A DNA stretch of 48,601 bases, taken from Nitrospirota bacterium. Its GTDB lineage: Bacteria; Nitrospinota; Nitrospinia; Nitrospinales; VA-1. Under the pieces are notes generated by a model. That model did no database searches and was not told the DNA's origin. It worked only from the letters and a program-made list of their open reading frames with translations. The position numbers were made by a program, and so were the translations under genes. This document shows, piece by piece, positions 37,533 through 46,405 of the stretch. The stretch's first letter is position 1. Every line of letters begins with the position of its first letter. Where the stretch lies: assembly GCA_003246675.1 (NCBI GenBank), contig QJZQ01000143.1, positions 1-48,601 on the forward strand. Direction: 5' to 3'.

Positions 37533-38744
37533 TCAGGAAATATTTTTCATCATGTGCCCGAGTTTCTCCTGCTTCGTTCTCAGGTATTTGATGTTGTCCT
37601 TTTTGGGATGGATTTCGATGGGCACCCGTTCGACGATCTCCAGCCCGTAGCCTTCCAGGCCGACGATCTTCCTCGGGTTGTTGGTCAGCAGGCGGATCTT
37701 GCCCAGACCGAGCTTGCTCAGAATCTGCGCTCCGATGCCGTACTCCCTGAGGTCGGGCTTGAAGCCCAGCGCCTCGTTGGCCTGTACCGTGTCCTGCCCG
37801 GTGTCCTGCAGGGCGTAGGCCTTGAGCTTGTTGACGATGCCAATGCCCCGGCCTTCCTGGTAGAGATACAGGAGGACGCCCCGGCCCTCCTTCTCGATCA
37901 TTTCCATGGCCTTTTTCAACTGTTCGCCGCAGTCGCAGCGATAGGAGCCGAACACGTCGCCGGTGAGGCACTGCGAGTGCACGCGCACGAGCGTCGGCAC
38001 CGCCGGGTCGATCTCCCCTTTCACCAGGGCGATATGGATCTGGTCGATCAGCACATTGCGGAAGGTGACCGCGCTGAAATCACCCTGCGGAGTCGGCAGG
38101 GTGGTGGTGACGACTTCCTCGACCAGGGTCTCCTGATGCAGCCGGTATTCGGCGAGATCCTTGGTGGTGATCATCTTCAGGCCGTGGGTTTTGGCGTATT
38201 GCGTCAGCGTGGGCACCCGCGCCATGGTGCCGTCGTCGTCCATGATCTCGCAGATCACGCCGGAAGCATCGAGGCCGGCCAGGCGGGACATGTCCACCGA
38301 CGCTTCGGTCTGCCCCATGCGTACGAGCACGCCTCCATCGCGGGCTCGCAGCGGGAAAATGTGCCCCGGCTTGACCAGGTCGCCCTTCGCGCTTTCAGGG
38401 TTGATGGCGACGCGGATGGTCTGCGCCCGGTCGGCGGCGGAGATGCCCGTCGTCACGCCTTCCTTGGCGTCGATGGAAATGGTGAACGGCGTCTCGAAGA
38501 GAGACTGGTTGTCCTCCACCATCATGCTGAGGCCGAGTTCGCGCGTGCGCTCCTCGGTGAGGGCGAGACAGATCAGCCCGCGGCCGTACTTGGCCATGAA
38601 GTTGATGGCCTCGGGGGTCACTTTTTCCGCGGCGATCATCAGATCGCCCTCGTTTTCCCGGTCCTCATCGTCGACGATGATAATGAGTTTTCCCTGGCGC
38701 ACATCTTCCAGGGCTTCAGGAATAGAACTGAATGGCTTGCTCAA
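37533..38744 (-). CDS. ribBA: Bifunctional 3,4-dihydroxy-2-butanone-4-phosphate synthase / GTP cyclohydrolase II
   Basis: [32 protein letters not shown]...; [24 protein letters not shown]. Confidence 0.97.
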
Positions 38745-38762
38745 AACGTTTTCCTTCGAATT

Positions 38763-39416
38763 TTACAGGAATCCATGTTTCCGGAGAGAATCCAAAGACA
38801 CGCCGCTCTCCCCCCGGGCGGCCCCGAGAATGGTTTCGCAGGCTTTAAGGACGTATTTGCCAATGATATCACATTCGATATTGACCCTGTCGCCTATTTT
38901 CCGCCCCTTCAGGTTGGTGTGCGAAAGGGTGAAGGGAATGATCGATACGGTGAAGCGGTTATCCTGACAGGCAAAGGCGGTGAGGCTGATGCCATCCACC
39001 GCGACGGAGCCTTTTTCGACGATCAGCGGCGCAAGCTCTTTGGGGTGCTCGAAGCGAAACAGGGTCTCCCCCGGCCGCGAATCGATAGACACCACCGTCC
39101 CCATCTGGTCGACATGGCCGGAGACAAAATGACCGCTCACTTTCTGCGACGGCGTGAGCGAACGCTCCAGGTTGAGCACCTCCCCTTCCCGGATATCCTG
39201 GAAGCCGGTGCGCGCGAGGGTCTCGCCGCTTAAATCCACCGTGAAGCGGTTGGCCTCCGCCGTGCGGACGGTCAGGCACACGCCGTTGACGGCGATGCTC
39301 TCGCCGAGTTCGAAACCGGTGAAATCGTCCCCGGTGCGGACGGTGACCTCGGCCCGCCCCTCGGAACGATGGATCTTCGCCACCTGGCCCTGGCTTTCGA
39401 TGATGCCGCTGAACAT
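38763..39416 (-). CDS. ribE: Riboflavin synthase alpha chain
   Basis: [17 protein letters not shown]...[13 protein letters not shown]...[14 protein letters not shown]. Confidence 0.96.
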
Positions 39417-39422
39417 GTCGAT

Positions 39423-40565
39423 CTATCCTTTAATAGTCGTTGGTGCGTTGCGCGGCCGGCCTTCCAGCATCCAGTCGCAGCCGACGGCGGTGACGCTGAG
39501 CCGTTCGAGCTTAAGCGCCTCGGCCATTTTTCCCGCGCCCAGGCCGCCCACCGGCCCGGGGGCGGCTTTGCCGCCGATGATGAGCGGGGCAACGAACATC
39601 GCGACACTATCCACCAGGCCCGCACCGAGCAGGCTGGCCGAAAGTTCGCCCCCGCCCTCGACGAGCAGGGAGGTGATTTCGCGCCGGCCCAGTTCATCCA
39701 TGAGCTGATTCAGGTCGAGGCCGCCCGCATTTTCCGCGATGGGCAGGACCTCCACCCCCATTTTTTCCAGACGGCTTTTTCTCGCGCGGGGAAACTCCGG
39801 CCCCGCCGCGAGAAGCACGCGCCCGGCGCCGGCGCCGGCACCATCAAAAACCCGCGCGCGCGTCGGAACACGGCCGAGACGGTCCAGAATAACACGAATG
39901 GGAGCGCGCGGCTTCCTTCCCGGCAAGCGGACGGTCAGTTGCGGGTCGTCCGCGACCACCGTCCCGGTGCCCACCAGAATGGCATCCACCCCGGCGCGCA
40001 TCTCGTGCACAACGCGGCGGGCCCTGGCTCCGGTGATCCAGCGCGAGTCCCCCTTCCGCGTGGCGATCTTACCGTCCAGCGACATGGCGGTCTTGAGAAG
40101 GGTCCACGGACGGCCGCTGACGATGTATTTGTTGAACGCGAGGTTAATCTCGCGGCAATCCTTTTCCAGCACACCGCAGAGCACCTCGATGCCGGCCCGC
40201 CGGAGGGCGCGAAGGCCCCGGCCGGCCACTTGCGGGTTCGGGTCCCGCTGGCCCACCACCACCCGCCGCACCCCGGCGCGAATGAGGGCCTCGGTGCACG
40301 GAGGCGTGCGGCCATGATGGCAGCACGGTTCCAGGTTTATGAACAGGTCCGCCCCTTGCGCCCGGCCTCCCGCCTGCCTGAGAGCGAGGATCTCGGCATG
40401 CGGCCCGCCCGCCTTGCGATGGTAACCCTCGCCCACCACGCGGCCATTTTTCACCAGCACCGCACCCACGATGGGGTTGGGCCGGGTGCGCCCCTTGCCC
40501 TTCAGAGCGAGTTCGATGGCGCGGCGCAGGTGCTTTTCGTCGCTCTTGGATGCGGTATGTGCCAC
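39423..40565 (-). CDS. ribD: Bifunctional diaminohydroxyphosphoribosylaminopyrimidine deaminase / uracil reductase
   Basis: RTRPNPIVGAVLVKNGRVVGEGYHRKAGGPHAEILALRQAG...NLEPCCHHGRTPPCTEAL; reductase C-terminus. Confidence 0.96.
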   Translation of the reverse strand: MAHTASKSDEKHLRRAIELALKGKGRTRPNPIVGAVLVKNGRVVGEGYHRKAGGPHAEILALRQAGGRAQGADLFINLEPCCHHGRTPPCTEALIRAGVRRVVVGQRDPNPQVAGRGLRALRRAGIEVLCGVLEKDCREINLAFNKYIVSGRPWTLLKTAMSLDGKIATRKGDSRWITGARARRVVHEMRAGVDAILVGTGTVVADDPQLTVRLPGRKPRAPIRVILDRLGRVPTRARVFDGAGAGAGRVLLAAGPEFPRARKSRLEKMGVEVLPIAENAGGLDLNQLMDELGRREITSLLVEGGGELSASLLGAGLVDSVAMFVAPLIIGGKAAPGPVGGLGAGKMAEALKLERLSVTAVGCDWMLEGRPRNAPTTIKG

Positions 40566-40742: not shown

Positions 40743-40802
40743 TCAGCCGCGCTTGCGCCGCAGCAGGTCCACCATGCGGTTTTCGATGCTGCCGCGTTGA
40801 TA
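40743..40802. repeat. 60-bp direct repeat, copy 2 (authentic motB 3' end)
   Basis: Same 60 bp with a single mismatch (A at 40774 versus C at 40692); encodes YQRGSIENRMVDLLRRKRG-stop of MotB. Confidence 0.95.
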
Positions 40803-41564
40803 AACGATTTCGATACGGCGGTTGGCGGCCCGGTTGGCGGGGCTGTCGTTGGGAACCTTCGGACGGAACTGGGCGAAACCCTCGATGCTCAGGTCTTCCG
40901 GATGAAAGCCGGATTCGACGAACATGCGCGCCACCTCCGCCGCGCGCGAGGCGGAAAGCTCCCAGTTGGAGGGAAAGCGTTCGCTATGGATGGGAGAGTC
41001 GTCGGTGTGGCCTTCGACTTTGACCTTGTAGCGGAATTGATTGAGCAGACGGAAGGTCTGCTGGATGATCTCCACGCCCTGCGGGGTCATCCTGGCCTGG
41101 CCGGGGGAAAACAGCACGACGTCGGCGATGGTGATGACGGCGCCGCGCTCGTCGGAACTCACCTGCACCTGGCCCGCGAGTTCGTTCTTGAACACGAACT
41201 CCTCCACTTCGGAGATGATCTGTTCGACCTCCTTGGCCACCATGGCGCCGACTTCATCGACGGCGAGCACGGCGCTTTCATCGAGCTCGGATTTGAGTAC
41301 CTCCAGCCCTTCCCGCACCCCGGCTTCGGGAATGGTTTCGACGCCCAGGGCGTGGCGCAGCGATTCCTTGATCTGCCGCCATTTTTTCTCCTCGATGGTG
41401 CCCATGGCAAACAGCAGGATGAAGAAGACCATGAGCAGGGTGACGAGGTCGGCGAAGGTCATCACCCAGGCGGGCGCGCCCTCGTCTCCTCCTTCCTCAT
41501 CCTCGTCGTCATCGAAATCGTCTTCCGGAGGCGGGCTTTTCTTTTTGTCTGCGCCTTCGCTCAC
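40743..41564 (-). CDS. motB: Flagellar motor protein MotB (OmpA-like C-terminus)
   Basis: APAWVMTFADLVTLLMVFFILLFA (plug/TM with conserved Asp); VEGHTDDSPIHSERFPSNWELSASRA. Confidence 0.94.
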   Translation of the reverse strand: MSEGADKKKSPPPEDDFDDDEDEEGGDEGAPAWVMTFADLVTLLMVFFILLFAMGTIEEKKWRQIKESLRHALGVETIPEAGVREGLEVLKSELDESAVLAVDEVGAMVAKEVEQIISEVEEFVFKNELAGQVQVSSDERGAVITIADVVLFSPGQARMTPQGVEIIQQTFRLLNQFRYKVKVEGHTDDSPIHSERFPSNWELSASRAAEVARMFVESGFHPEDLSIEGFAQFRPKVPNDSPANRAANRRIEIVYQRGSIENRMVDLLRRKRG

Positions 41565-42371
41565 TTACTTTTTCTCGCTCGCGGATTTTTGATCGGCGCT
41601 ATCGGCATCCTTCCTGTCCTTCTTGCCGTGATAGGAGTCCAGGTAATTTTCCAGCACCGACTTCATGAAACGCGGGTTGACGCCTTTACGGATGTAGGAG
41701 ATGCCTTCCAGCACCAGGTTCATCTCCAGAGTTTCGGTGGCGCTCCTGCGCTTGAGTTTGACGGTCATGGGAATGAAGATCAGGTTGGCCACCACCGCGC
41801 CGTAAAAGGTGGTGATGAGGGCAATGGCCATCTTGGGGCCGACGCTGTTGACGTCCGACAAGTCGGCCAGCATCTGGATGAGGCCGATGAGGGTGCCGAT
41901 CATGCCAAATGCGGGGGCGAAGGCGCCCATTTCCTTGAAGATCTCCCAGCCGTCCTTGTGCGATTTTTTGATCTGCTGAATTTCACGCCGCAGCAGGGCG
42001 TTGACGGTGGCTTCGTCCTTGCCGTCGACGGTCATCTCCAGGCCCTTCTTGAGAAACTCGTTTTCGATCTCGCCCAGCTTGGATTCGATGGCGAGCACCC
42101 CGCCCTTACGCGCCACGTCGCTGATTTCCACCATGGTGTCGATGAGCTGGTAATGATCGGATTTTCTTTCAAGGAAGACGCGCAGGAACAGCTTGAGCAC
42201 CTTCATCAGTTCGCCGAAGGGAAAAGCCACCAGGGTGGCGGCGAGGGTGCCGCCGAGCACGATCATCGCCGAGGGGGCGTTCCAGAACAGTGTGAGACCG
42301 CTGTTCATCAGGATGGATGACAAGACGAGGCCAACGCCCGCGACAATGCCTGCTATGGTTGCAAAATCCAT
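41565..42371 (-). CDS. motA: Flagellar motor stator protein MotA
   Basis: MDFATIAGIVAGVGLVLSSILMN...APAFGMIGTLIGLIQMLADLSDVNSVGPKMAIALITTFYGAVVANLIFIP. Confidence 0.94.
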   Translation of the reverse strand: MDFATIAGIVAGVGLVLSSILMNSGLTLFWNAPSAMIVLGGTLAATLVAFPFGELMKVLKLFLRVFLERKSDHYQLIDTMVEISDVARKGGVLAIESKLGEIENEFLKKGLEMTVDGKDEATVNALLRREIQQIKKSHKDGWEIFKEMGAFAPAFGMIGTLIGLIQMLADLSDVNSVGPKMAIALITTFYGAVVANLIFIPMTVKLKRRSATETLEMNLVLEGISYIRKGVNPRFMKSVLENYLDSYHGKKDRKDADSADQKSASEKK

Positions 42372-42374
42372 GGT

Positions 42375-43730
42375 TTAGGACGGGTGGCAGATTTTGATCG
42401 GCCCCTTGATGGGGTCCATCGCGTGAAATTTAAGCACCTTGCTGACAATTTCAGAGTCGAGAACGGTGCCGCTTCTCAGAATGTTGATTCCCGATTCGGA
42501 GTACAGGTCCGACACCAGCTCCATGCCTTCGGTAAGGGCGAACACCGAGCACTCCATCTCGGCTTTACCGCCGCTTGGGCGCTGCTGGGTCTCGACGCAA
42601 TGCCTGAGCACGGCGAGCACCTGTTCGTCGAACAGCTTGCCGCCCTGGTCGAGCATGCGGGCAAGGAGAGTGGCGACGCTCTGCCCGGGCTGGGCCACAC
42701 GGGAGTGGTCGAAATAACTCACCGCGGAAATAATGCGCGAGCCCACGGGAATCTGTTCTCCGTACAAGCCGTCGGGAGTGCCGGAGCCATCGACGTTCTC
42801 GTGCAGGTGACGCAGGATGTCGGCCACCAGCTCGAAACCGGGAAACCCCTTGAGCAGCATCTCCCCCACCAGGGGGTGGGTGTTGTACTTCCTGTTCTTT
42901 CGCTCGTCCATCGCTTCCTGGCGCCTCTCCTCGGTGGGCAGGGCGATGATGCCGAGTTCGTGCAGCCGGGCGGCGGTGCGGATGTTGCGGACCTGATAAT
43001 TCCTCAACTCCATCTTCTCGGCGATGGCCACCGACAATTCGGCCACCCGTTCGGAGTGGCCCCGGTGGCTGGCCTGATGCAGTTCGATGATGCTGGCCAG
43101 CAGCGTCTCGGTGGAATCGAAGCGGCCGCTCAGCTCCTCGATCATCGAGGAAATCTGAGCGTTCTTGTCCTCAAGTTGCCGGTTGAGTTCCTGCATGTCC
43201 TTCAGGTTGTCGGCCAGACGCTGCTTGTCGGCACGGAGTTCGCTATTGAGCCCGGCAAGGTTCTTGTGAAAATTATTGAGCTGCCCGAGCGAGGTTTCGA
43301 GCTGCCGGTTTTTCTCGTACAGGGCGTGGCTGAGCTCGGACACCTTGAACACCGACCGAAGAGCATAGCCGACCTCGCCGGGCTTGAGGGGTTTGGCAAG
43401 GTAGGCATCGGCCCCGGCGCGCCGGGCCCGAGCGGCGGCATCCGCGCCGGCCTGGTAACCGGAAGTCAGGATCATCGCGGCGCGGGGCTGCAACTTGCGG
43501 ACGCGCCGGCACACCTCGAAACCGTCGGTGCCGGAAAGTTCGATGGCGCAAAACACCACGTCCCAGCGCTCGCTGCGCACTTTTTCCAGCCCGCCGTCGG
43601 CATCGGCAACAGGGTGCACCCGCGCTTCGCCTTCCCCCAGTTCGGCCGCGAGGGCCGCTTGAACCACTTGCGCGGTCCCCGCATCCGGGTCGATCAAGAG
43701 AATGTTCTTTTCTTTTCCCGTCAGGCTCAA
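42375..43730 (-). CDS. Receiver-like plus coiled coil plus HD-GYP-like domain protein (degenerate motifs)
   Basis: NILLIDPDAGTAQVV...WDVVFCAIELSGTDGFEVCRRVRKL...AYLAKPLKPGEVG; coiled coil; LHELGIIALP...HPLVGEMLL...LHENVDGSGTPDGLYGEQIP. TTG start at 43730 inferred; ORF opens at 43832. Confidence 0.82.
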   Translation of the reverse strand: MSLTGKEKNILLIDPDAGTAQVVQAALAAELGEGEARVHPVADADGGLEKVRSERWDVVFCAIELSGTDGFEVCRRVRKLQPRAAMILTSGYQAGADAAARARRAGADAYLAKPLKPGEVGYALRSVFKVSELSHALYEKNRQLETSLGQLNNFHKNLAGLNSELRADKQRLADNLKDMQELNRQLEDKNAQISSMIEELSGRFDSTETLLASIIELHQASHRGHSERVAELSVAIAEKMELRNYQVRNIRTAARLHELGIIALPTEERRQEAMDERKNRKYNTHPLVGEMLLKGFPGFELVADILRHLHENVDGSGTPDGLYGEQIPVGSRIISAVSYFDHSRVAQPGQSVATLLARMLDQGGKLFDEQVLAVLRHCVETQQRPSGGKAEMECSVFALTEGMELVSDLYSESGINILRSGTVLDSEIVSKVLKFHAMDPIKGPIKICHPS

Positions 43731-44029: not shown

Positions 44030-46405
44030 CTAGTCCTCGTCGTCCTCCATGTCGTCCTCGATTTCGGTGAAGCGCGGGCCGGCGACGCAGCGAAAGCCGA
44101 CGTTCAGGCACCGTTCATCGGGGTCGAAGGTGTTGCGGTAAAAGCATTTGGAATGCACCAGGTAATTGAGCCAGGAGCCACCGCGCACCACGCGCCCGGT
44201 GGTGTGCTTCGCCGCGTGCGGCTGAATGCACCACTCCCAGACGTTGCCCGCCATGTCGAAGCAGCCGTAGGGGGAGATGCCCTGCTCGAAATCCAGCACC
44301 GCGGTGGTCTGGCCGATCATGAAGTCGCAGGTATTGGCGAAGCCGTTCTGATAGCCCATCGCCTCGCCCCAGGGGTAGTCGCGCCCATCGGTACCGCGGG
44401 CCGCCTTCTCCCATTCCTTCTCCACCGGCAGGCGCTTGCCGAACCACAGGGAGAACACCACGGCTTCGTAATAATTGATCCCGGTCACGGGTTGATCCGC
44501 GCGGCTGGAATATTTGGGGAACAGGGGTTTGTGGTTGGGGTCGAACTCGCGGTACAGGGCGTTGGTCACGGGAAATTTCATGATGGCGTATTCCATCAGG
44601 TTGATCTGGTCGTCCTCGTGCTTTTCATCCTGATAGATGAATTTGCCCGCCGAGATGGTGACCATTTCGCCGTAGCGTTTGATGACCGGCAGGTTCACCT
44701 GGGCGGCATCGCTGGATTCGGCGAAAAATCCGGCAAGCTCCGGGAGTTTCCGCAAGGGCTCGAAATCGAGCCGGTCGACCAGGTCGTGAAGGTTCAGGCC
44801 GTGCATCGCGCACAGGAGTTCGAGCACGGCGAACAGCACCCGGCTGTCGCGCTTCTCGCGCACCAGCCAGGGGCGTATGCGGGCCCGGAGCGCCTCTTTG
44901 CCGCCGATTGCGGCAAGCACGTCCTCGATCCGTACCTTGCGGAACGGGGCGAAGGCGGGCTCGCTTTCCCGGCACTGGTACTTGAGCAGATGCTTGACGA
45001 GCAGCCGCACCTTCTCGGATAGACCCTCGGCCTCGGTGAGCGCCCGGCCGCAGAGAAACAACGCCCCTTCTTCGAGGAGGATTTCGTACAGCTCCTCCAC
45101 CGGCACCATGCCCGCGAGAAAGATCAGGGTCTCCTGCCATTTTTCGTCGCGGCAATGGGCGCGGACGATGTCCCGCCAGGCGGAATCTTCGGCCAGGCGG
45201 CGCGCCGCAAGGTACTCCTGAAATGCGGGGTGCCGGTACTGCCACCGCCGCGCGGTCTCCTGAAGCACCGCCCCCTTCGGCAGGCCGGCCGCTTTCTGAA
45301 GAAACGGCTCCTTGCCGTCTTCCTTGTCAAAGCCCGTCTCAAGGGTGTCGAAACGCGCCGAACGGCCCGCGGTGAGCTGCTCCAGGGACACTTCCATCAG
45401 GCGCTTGAGCGCCGCCGTCTCGCCGCCCTCCTGACACAGGCCGTCGAAAAAGGCGCGGTAGAGCCCGCCCTTGCCCAGAAAATCCTCCAGCCCATGGGCC
45501 TCGTGAATCCGGCGGATCATGTTGAGCAGAATCGGCGTGTTGAACAGTTCGGGGTAACAGCGGCCCAGCGCGGCCAGAGGCCGGTGAGCGGCGGCGTCTC
45601 CCAGATAAGCCTTTTGCTGTTTTTCGTCCAGGGGAGCGAACGACACCTGAAAGCCCGCGTCCTCGCCCCGGCGGACCAGTGAATCGGTGGCCAGGGGGCC
45701 GAAGTCGAAATGGCGGCTGGCCAGAAAAATGAAATTGGAGAGGAAGGCATTGTCGTTGATGAAAACCTCGCAATAGGTCTGGAAACGATCCTTGAGCTCC
45801 ATTTCATCGAGGCCGTCGAGCAGGAAAAGAATCCGGCTGGAGCGAAACAGCGATTCGATGGTGCGCCGGAGAACCGCCTCGTCGAGCTCCAGGCCGCCGA
45901 GCGCTTCCCGCTCCTCGAGCACCGTGGCGAGAATCTCCTTGAATACGGAATCGAAGAAATGGGCGAAACCGCTTCCCTCTTCCAGGGCCGACAGATTAAA
46001 ATAGACCGGAAGCGGGTAGACGGGATGCGCAGGCCCCTGCAGCAGGACCTCCTGGTAGCGTTTGAAGTGGGTGGTCTTGCCCATGCCCGCACCCGCCTCA
46101 AGGCGCACCTTGAGCCGGGGCACTTCGAGGAGATCTTCATGAATCACCCGCGGGGTGGGGAACACCTGCTCGTGCAGGCTCTGCCGGTGCCCCGCCGGGT
46201 TCAGGTCGAGCAGATCGCGCCTGAGGCAGGTTTTGCTGCGCGGGCCCGGTCCGAGGATTTCATCGAGATCGGCGCTCACCTTTTTCAACTGGTGCTTGCG
46301 AAAGCAGGCGATGACCCACTCGCGGGATTCCTCCAGAGTCGGCTGGACGGCGGGCGATGAGCTGCCCCCGCGCCGCCTGAGAGATAAATCTTTTTCTTCG
46401 CTCAT
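44030..46405 (-). CDS. NACHT-type STAND NTPase fused to C-terminal formylglycine-generating-enzyme (SUMF1/FGE-sulfatase) fold domain
   Basis: Walker A RLEAGAGMGKTTHFKRY; Walker B RILFLLDGLDEM; helical NACHT C-terminal region; FGE-like INYYEAVVFSLWFGKRLPVEKEWEKAARGTDGRDYPWGEA...GCFDMAGNVWEWCIQP...RVVRGGSWLNYLVHSKCFYRNTFDPDERCLNVGFRCVAG. Confidence 0.9.
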   Translation of the reverse strand: MSEEKDLSLRRRGGSSSPAVQPTLEESREWVIACFRKHQLKKVSADLDEILGPGPRSKTCLRRDLLDLNPAGHRQSLHEQVFPTPRVIHEDLLEVPRLKVRLEAGAGMGKTTHFKRYQEVLLQGPAHPVYPLPVYFNLSALEEGSGFAHFFDSVFKEILATVLEEREALGGLELDEAVLRRTIESLFRSSRILFLLDGLDEMELKDRFQTYCEVFINDNAFLSNFIFLASRHFDFGPLATDSLVRRGEDAGFQVSFAPLDEKQQKAYLGDAAAHRPLAALGRCYPELFNTPILLNMIRRIHEAHGLEDFLGKGGLYRAFFDGLCQEGGETAALKRLMEVSLEQLTAGRSARFDTLETGFDKEDGKEPFLQKAAGLPKGAVLQETARRWQYRHPAFQEYLAARRLAEDSAWRDIVRAHCRDEKWQETLIFLAGMVPVEELYEILLEEGALFLCGRALTEAEGLSEKVRLLVKHLLKYQCRESEPAFAPFRKVRIEDVLAAIGGKEALRARIRPWLVREKRDSRVLFAVLELLCAMHGLNLHDLVDRLDFEPLRKLPELAGFFAESSDAAQVNLPVIKRYGEMVTISAGKFIYQDEKHEDDQINLMEYAIMKFPVTNALYREFDPNHKPLFPKYSSRADQPVTGINYYEAVVFSLWFGKRLPVEKEWEKAARGTDGRDYPWGEAMGYQNGFANTCDFMIGQTTAVLDFEQGISPYGCFDMAGNVWEWCIQPHAAKHTTGRVVRGGSWLNYLVHSKCFYRNTFDPDERCLNVGFRCVAGPRFTEIEDDMEDDED

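Follow-up and report, generated by a model that had tools for sequence, protein, structure and literature searches.

Organisation of the locus

The window, by which we mean the whole stretch of 48,601 nucleotides of DNA analysed here, carries on its minus strand a gene (42375..43730) for a protein of 451 amino acids, in which a receiver domain (REC), a coiled coil, a degenerate HD-GYP domain and a C-terminal domain follow one another (hereafter the HD protein). The gene starts with TTG at 43730, with an AGGGAG ribosome-binding site upstream, and the aligned REC/HD-GYP homologues start at the same position. Its stop codon (42375-42377) is followed by ACC and then, after this 3 bp gap, by the ATG of motA at 42371. 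The reading frame, coordinates, strand and spacing given in a preliminary description of the locus were confirmed, and every motif quoted there was found in the window sequence.

The motA gene next to the HD protein (motA2; 41565..42371, minus strand) encodes a PomA-like stator subunit (Pfam MotA_ExbB, 1.8e-30; NCBIfam PomA, 1.5e-77) with the torque motif ARKGGVLAIE, and motB2 (40743..41564, minus strand) encodes a stator subunit with the channel Asp (TFADLVTLLMVFF) and an OmpA domain. Judged by the retained torque residues and channel Asp, the MotA2B2 stator looks functional. Downstream of motB2, on the same strand, are the riboflavin genes ribD, ribE and ribBA (37533-40565, minus strand). 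The product of the gene upstream of the HD protein (44030-46405, minus strand) has an FGE-sulfatase domain (1e-37), and inspection by eye also shows a P-loop (GAGMGKTT) and an LLDGLDEM motif like those of NACHT-type ATPases; such a fusion adjoining a stator operon is unusual. A search upstream of the HD protein gene for sigma28 and sigma54 flagellar promoters showed no enrichment over shuffled sequences. A sigma70-like site (TTGACT...TATCAT) is present there and is common to several relatives. The window itself belongs to the Nitrospinaceae lineage (Nitrospinota). Those relatives that have names are Nitrospinaceae and other Nitrospinota, and the HD protein is 81% identical in a relative of the same genus and 48-58% identical in other members of the family or order.

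Domain architecture

The receiver domain (residues 8-120; 43371..43709, minus strand), delimited with an alignment of 38 orthologues, matches Pfam Response_reg (1.1e-14, residues 10-120), and the HD-GYP-like domain (residues 205-385; 42576..43118, minus strand) matches HD_5 (1.5e-27, residues 210-370), both far over the Pfam cut-offs. Between them AlphaFold predicts a single long helix (residues 117-218; 43077..43382, minus strand), with pLDDT values of 80-94 over most of its length and 67-77 near its end. The helix has an Asn/Leu pattern that is invariant among the homologues, and in the model it is probably a dimer stalk. A small domain follows the HD domain in the model; this conserved C-terminal domain (residues 390-448; 42387..42563, minus strand) also ends NosR-type proteins.

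The full-length model was weak at the active-site loops, and the HD part was remodelled with 94 homologues, giving a mean pLDDT of 92. The best PDB fold matches of this model (Foldseek) are DvhD, PA4781, PmGH, V-cGAP3 and Bd1817, with DvhD the closest, and by both Pfam and AlphaFold/Foldseek the window protein has the fold of an HD-GYP domain.

The HD-GYP-like active site

Active-site residues were mapped onto PmGH by profile and pairwise alignments. Four histidines of the PmGH metal site are kept (H189 = H225, H221 = H257, H250 = H285 and H277 = H310), and the full H...HD...H...HH...D set of metal ligands is absent because D222 is replaced by E258, E185 by S221, H276 by L309 and D305 by S338; the structural D308 is kept as D341. 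The catalytic Lys/Asp pair is also absent (K225 to I261, D183 to Q219), and the change of Y285 to T318 turns the GYP motif into GTP at residues 317-319. The changes at D222, K225, H276, Y285 and D305 lie in three stretches of the minus strand: HELGI (residues 257-261; 42948..42962) in place of HDxGK, HLHENVDGSGTP (residues 308-319; 42774..42809) in place of HHExxDGxGYP, and SYFD (residues 338-341; 42708..42719), where the D305 ligand has become Ser. Alignment with this active HD-GYP enzyme confirms a degenerate site, with ligands and the Lys/Asp pair lost. The earlier reading of LHELG as a degenerate HDIGK stands in a refined form: the first metal His is kept, HD has become HE and the lysine is Ile.

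The same replacements run through the family. Every one of the 94 motA-linked homologues, which come from two phyla (Nitrospinota and that of the Desulfobacteraceae), has HE for HD; the H276 equivalent is replaced in 94/94 and that of K225 in 93/94, and none of the 38 Nitrospinota rows retains the Y285 equivalent; REC/HD-GYP proteins from the Desulfobacterota sample that are not linked to motA keep HD. Since alanine at D222, H276, K225 or D183 abolishes the activity of PmGH (PMC4159591), the family-wide replacement of D222, K225 and H276 strongly supports catalytic death, as suggested in the preliminary description. On these alignments, c-di-GMP hydrolysis by the window protein is very unlikely, and, the residues of the HD-GYP site here are incompatible with those of the known metallo-phosphodiesterase site.

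The fixation of HE across distant lineages points to a function of the altered site rather than to drift. With H225, H285 and H310 kept besides H257, the metal site is partly, not wholly, stripped, and the four histidines left in the Nitrospinota lineage make a changed metal site possible. An H...HE...H...H site with metal binding intact and hydrolytic activity on a different nucleotide would fit both the retention of His225, His257, Glu258, His285 and His310 in Nitrospinota and the fixed HE. We nevertheless regard such altered chemistry as very improbable, given that the equivalents of H276, D305 and K225 are gone and that no metal site common to the family survives, the Desulfobacteraceae homologues lacking the H250 equivalent (49/56) and mostly that of H277 too.

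HE for HD was also seen in three more distant Nitrospinota proteins (L071, L073 and L091; HEIGQ, HEIGM), which form a separate NosR-like clade; HE may have arisen twice. A further motA-motB pair lies at a distance of about 2 kb from the gene of the L071 protein.

The receiver domain

The proposal that the receiver cannot be phosphorylated holds for this genus and fails for the family as a whole. In the window protein, sequence and alignment place Ala62 (codon 43545..43547, minus strand) at the phospho-acceptor position, and DPD replaces DDD in the pocket (D14 kept, D15 to Pro), with Lys113 kept. The acceptor Asp is retained in 31 of 38 Nitrospinota orthologues, and the pseudo-receiver is therefore lineage-specific. 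On a tree built without the receiver domain, all Asp-less receivers (A, V, N, N, N, G, N) fall within one eight-member clade, whose sole Asp-bearing member is L010, and at least two changes are required. The ratio of receiver to HD distances is 1.64 in this clade versus 0.35-1.08 in the Asp-bearing clades, as expected if the receiver had lost constraint, and the HD, helix and C-terminal domains are 68-78% conserved within it. Desulfobacteraceae receivers keep Asp62 in 45/50 cases (Glu in 5) and have lost the acidic pocket and Lys113, so that phospho-competence appears, from these residues, to have been lost there separately and by another route.

Linkage to the second stator

The motA2-motB2 pair lies directly downstream of the HD protein gene in all 38 Nitrospinota loci with enough contig. 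Among 78 Desulfobacteraceae genomes, 58 encode the HD protein and motA adjoins it in 57; one genome has the protein only, none the stator only and 20 neither. The one genome (G422) without motA beside the HD protein gene has a dihydrolipoamide dehydrogenase-like gene downstream in its place (L161, G422:C114). The 48 FliG-positive Nitrospinota relatives comprise 35 with both intact, 3 with both broken and 10 with neither, and none is discordant. Fisher tests of protein/stator co-occurrence gave p = 5e-12 and 1e-17, values that are overstated since the genomes are related. Ten flagellated relatives have neither MotA2 nor the HD protein, which thus tracks MotA2 and not flagella generally. In each of the three broken loci (genomes G005, G020 and G023) the HD protein lacks its end, motA is missing completely or almost so, and motB has lost its front but retains its tail. 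The decayed loci (L066, L067/L062 and L068/L055) share this pattern of truncation.

All motA-linked proteins, including the divergent L070, form one clade (support 100/99), and the window protein has both the HE signature and a place in that clade. On the evidence of gene order, gene content and decay, the HD protein and motA2-motB2 share their inheritance, their losses and their decay. The stator link suggested in the preliminary description is strongly supported by the synteny in two phyla, the co-occurrence and the joint decay. A relic carried along in the operon and decaying might account for the raised receiver divergence in the Asp-less clade and for the truncated copies in three relatives. 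This is scarcely credible, as the strong conservation of the HD, helix and C-terminal domains largely refutes it, full-length copies persist in two phyla and truncation occurs only where motA2 is lost as well.

The genus has another, more ordinary stator pair (G000:C223), whose MotA is 42% identical. At this MotA1B1 locus motB1 is followed by a PilZ gene, which shows 84% identity to that of the sister species (loci L074, 6692-9048 of G000:C223, and L089, 5341-7681). Both stator loci thus include a protein with a fold related to c-di-GMP, PilZ at MotA1B1 and the dead HD-GYP protein at MotA2B2.

A candidate stator adaptor

We propose, with a probability of about one half, that the dead REC/HD-GYP protein is an adaptor dedicated to the second, PomAB-like stator and acts by protein contact. 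The protein would work as a dimer held by the helix of about 100 residues, and its HD fold would serve as a platform for protein contacts through which assembly, engagement or activity of MotA2B2 may be controlled. The invariant HENxDGSGxP loop would be the likeliest contact face, a guess from conservation. Orthologues with intact receivers may take a phospho-signal, and the protein of this genus would act without one. That the genetic linkage reflects a physical effect on MotA2B2 is our inference, and adjacency and co-loss also fit plain co-expression of the protein with another target.

Such another target could be a second c-di-GMP enzyme, bound and tuned by a dead HD-GYP protein in the manner of NosR or HnoD, in which case the position beside motA would reflect co-expression with motility. 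Over its full length, the window protein finds its top NCBIfam match in the NosR family, at 210 bits; B. pseudomallei NosR is HG-GTP (PMC12570481), and HnoD contacts the EAL protein HnoB directly and thereby suppresses it (PMC6335343). We hold this to be distinctly unlikely here: the score is below the NosR cut-off of 400, the tree puts the motA-linked and NosR-type proteins apart, no kinase or FIST gene adjoins at the locus, and the protein follows one stator and not flagella generally. Filing the window protein as NosR (NF053512) was rejected for its score below the cut-off, its other neighbours and its separate clade.

As the main alternative, the protein could be a c-di-GMP receptor in which ligand bound in the old active site moves the stalk and thereby tunes MotA2B2, much as YcgR and PilZ proteins act on other stators. 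Its nearest PDB fold is that of c-di-GMP-bound DvhD, itself a dead HD-GYP, which binds c-di-GMP at 99 nM without metal and moves its stalk (PMC13090378). The genome has six GGDEF matches and PilZ proteins, and a PilZ gene adjoins motB1 at the other stator pair of the genus. However, the DvhD contact residues R650/Y652/R653 (PmGH R314/K317) are not matched by conserved residues in the 94 homologues, in which no basic residue is conserved at these positions, loop L10/11 is about 3 residues shorter, with Q347/G349/Q350 at the contact positions here, and the Y285 equivalent is gone from all 38 Nitrospinota rows. Because the guanine-contact residues are unconserved and the loop is shorter, a role in protein contact is favoured, and we consider the receptor reading possible and rather unlikely.

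Extended to the family, the proposal is somewhat more tentative than for the window protein: a hitherto undescribed class of stator-dedicated pseudo-phosphodiesterases in Nitrospinota and Desulfobacteraceae may control one of two alternative stators by contact, with separate losses of the receiver input that involved different residues in different lineages. If a pseudoenzyme does track one of two stators in this way, it would offer a new means of choosing or tuning the power units of the motor. Members of the family can readily be recognised by the HE signature together with motA adjacency. Automated annotation would be apt to label the window protein a c-di-GMP phosphodiesterase, a label that would mislead models of motility and biofilm formation in nitrite oxidisers and sulfate reducers.

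Comparison with known systems

Dead HD-GYP proteins are known from adhesin and nitric oxide pathways, and degenerate HD-GYP response regulators have already been described (NosR, PMC12570481; HnoD, PMC6335343). A stator-linked dead HD-GYP protein was not found in the open-access literature searched, which is not proof of novelty.

The HD-GYP domain of DvhD from Desulfovibrio vulgaris (PDB 9rbz, 9rc0; PMC13090378), the top fold match, is likewise catalytically dead and has a helical dimer stalk ahead of it. The HD and HH ligands are lost in both proteins, as SQ and MN in DvhD and as HE and LH in the window protein. DvhD differs in being a membrane PAS/dCache receptor of an adhesin system, and it keeps the Arg/Tyr/Arg contacts to c-di-GMP that the window protein family is without. 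Bd1817 of Bdellovibrio (PDB 3tm8) shares an inactive HD-GYP-like fold and a degraded GYP motif, but it binds two irons (PMC8177086) and is, as far as known here, linked neither to a receiver nor to a stator.

PilZ stator brakes such as YcgR and FlgZ are also cytoplasmic regulators, and their targets in the flagellar motor include MotA (PMC13432727), although they have an unrelated fold and depend on c-di-GMP, and the window protein is without a PilZ domain. HnoD of Shewanella oneidensis (PMC6335343) resembles the window protein in being a response regulator whose HD-GYP domain is degenerate, and it works through protein contact, a mode that would apply here by inference; it is directed at an EAL phosphodiesterase of a nitric oxide pathway and has no stator linkage. 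NosR (NF053512; BPSS1648, PMC12570481) is alike in combining REC, a degenerate HD-GYP domain with GTP for GYP, and a similar C-terminal domain. It sits with nosP (FIST) and nosK (kinase) and is phosphorylated by NosK, whereas the window protein has no phospho-acceptor, scores 210 bits against the cut-off of 400, has a longer helix and, with no nosP or nosK at the locus, lies between motA2/motB2 and the gene with the FGE-sulfatase domain.
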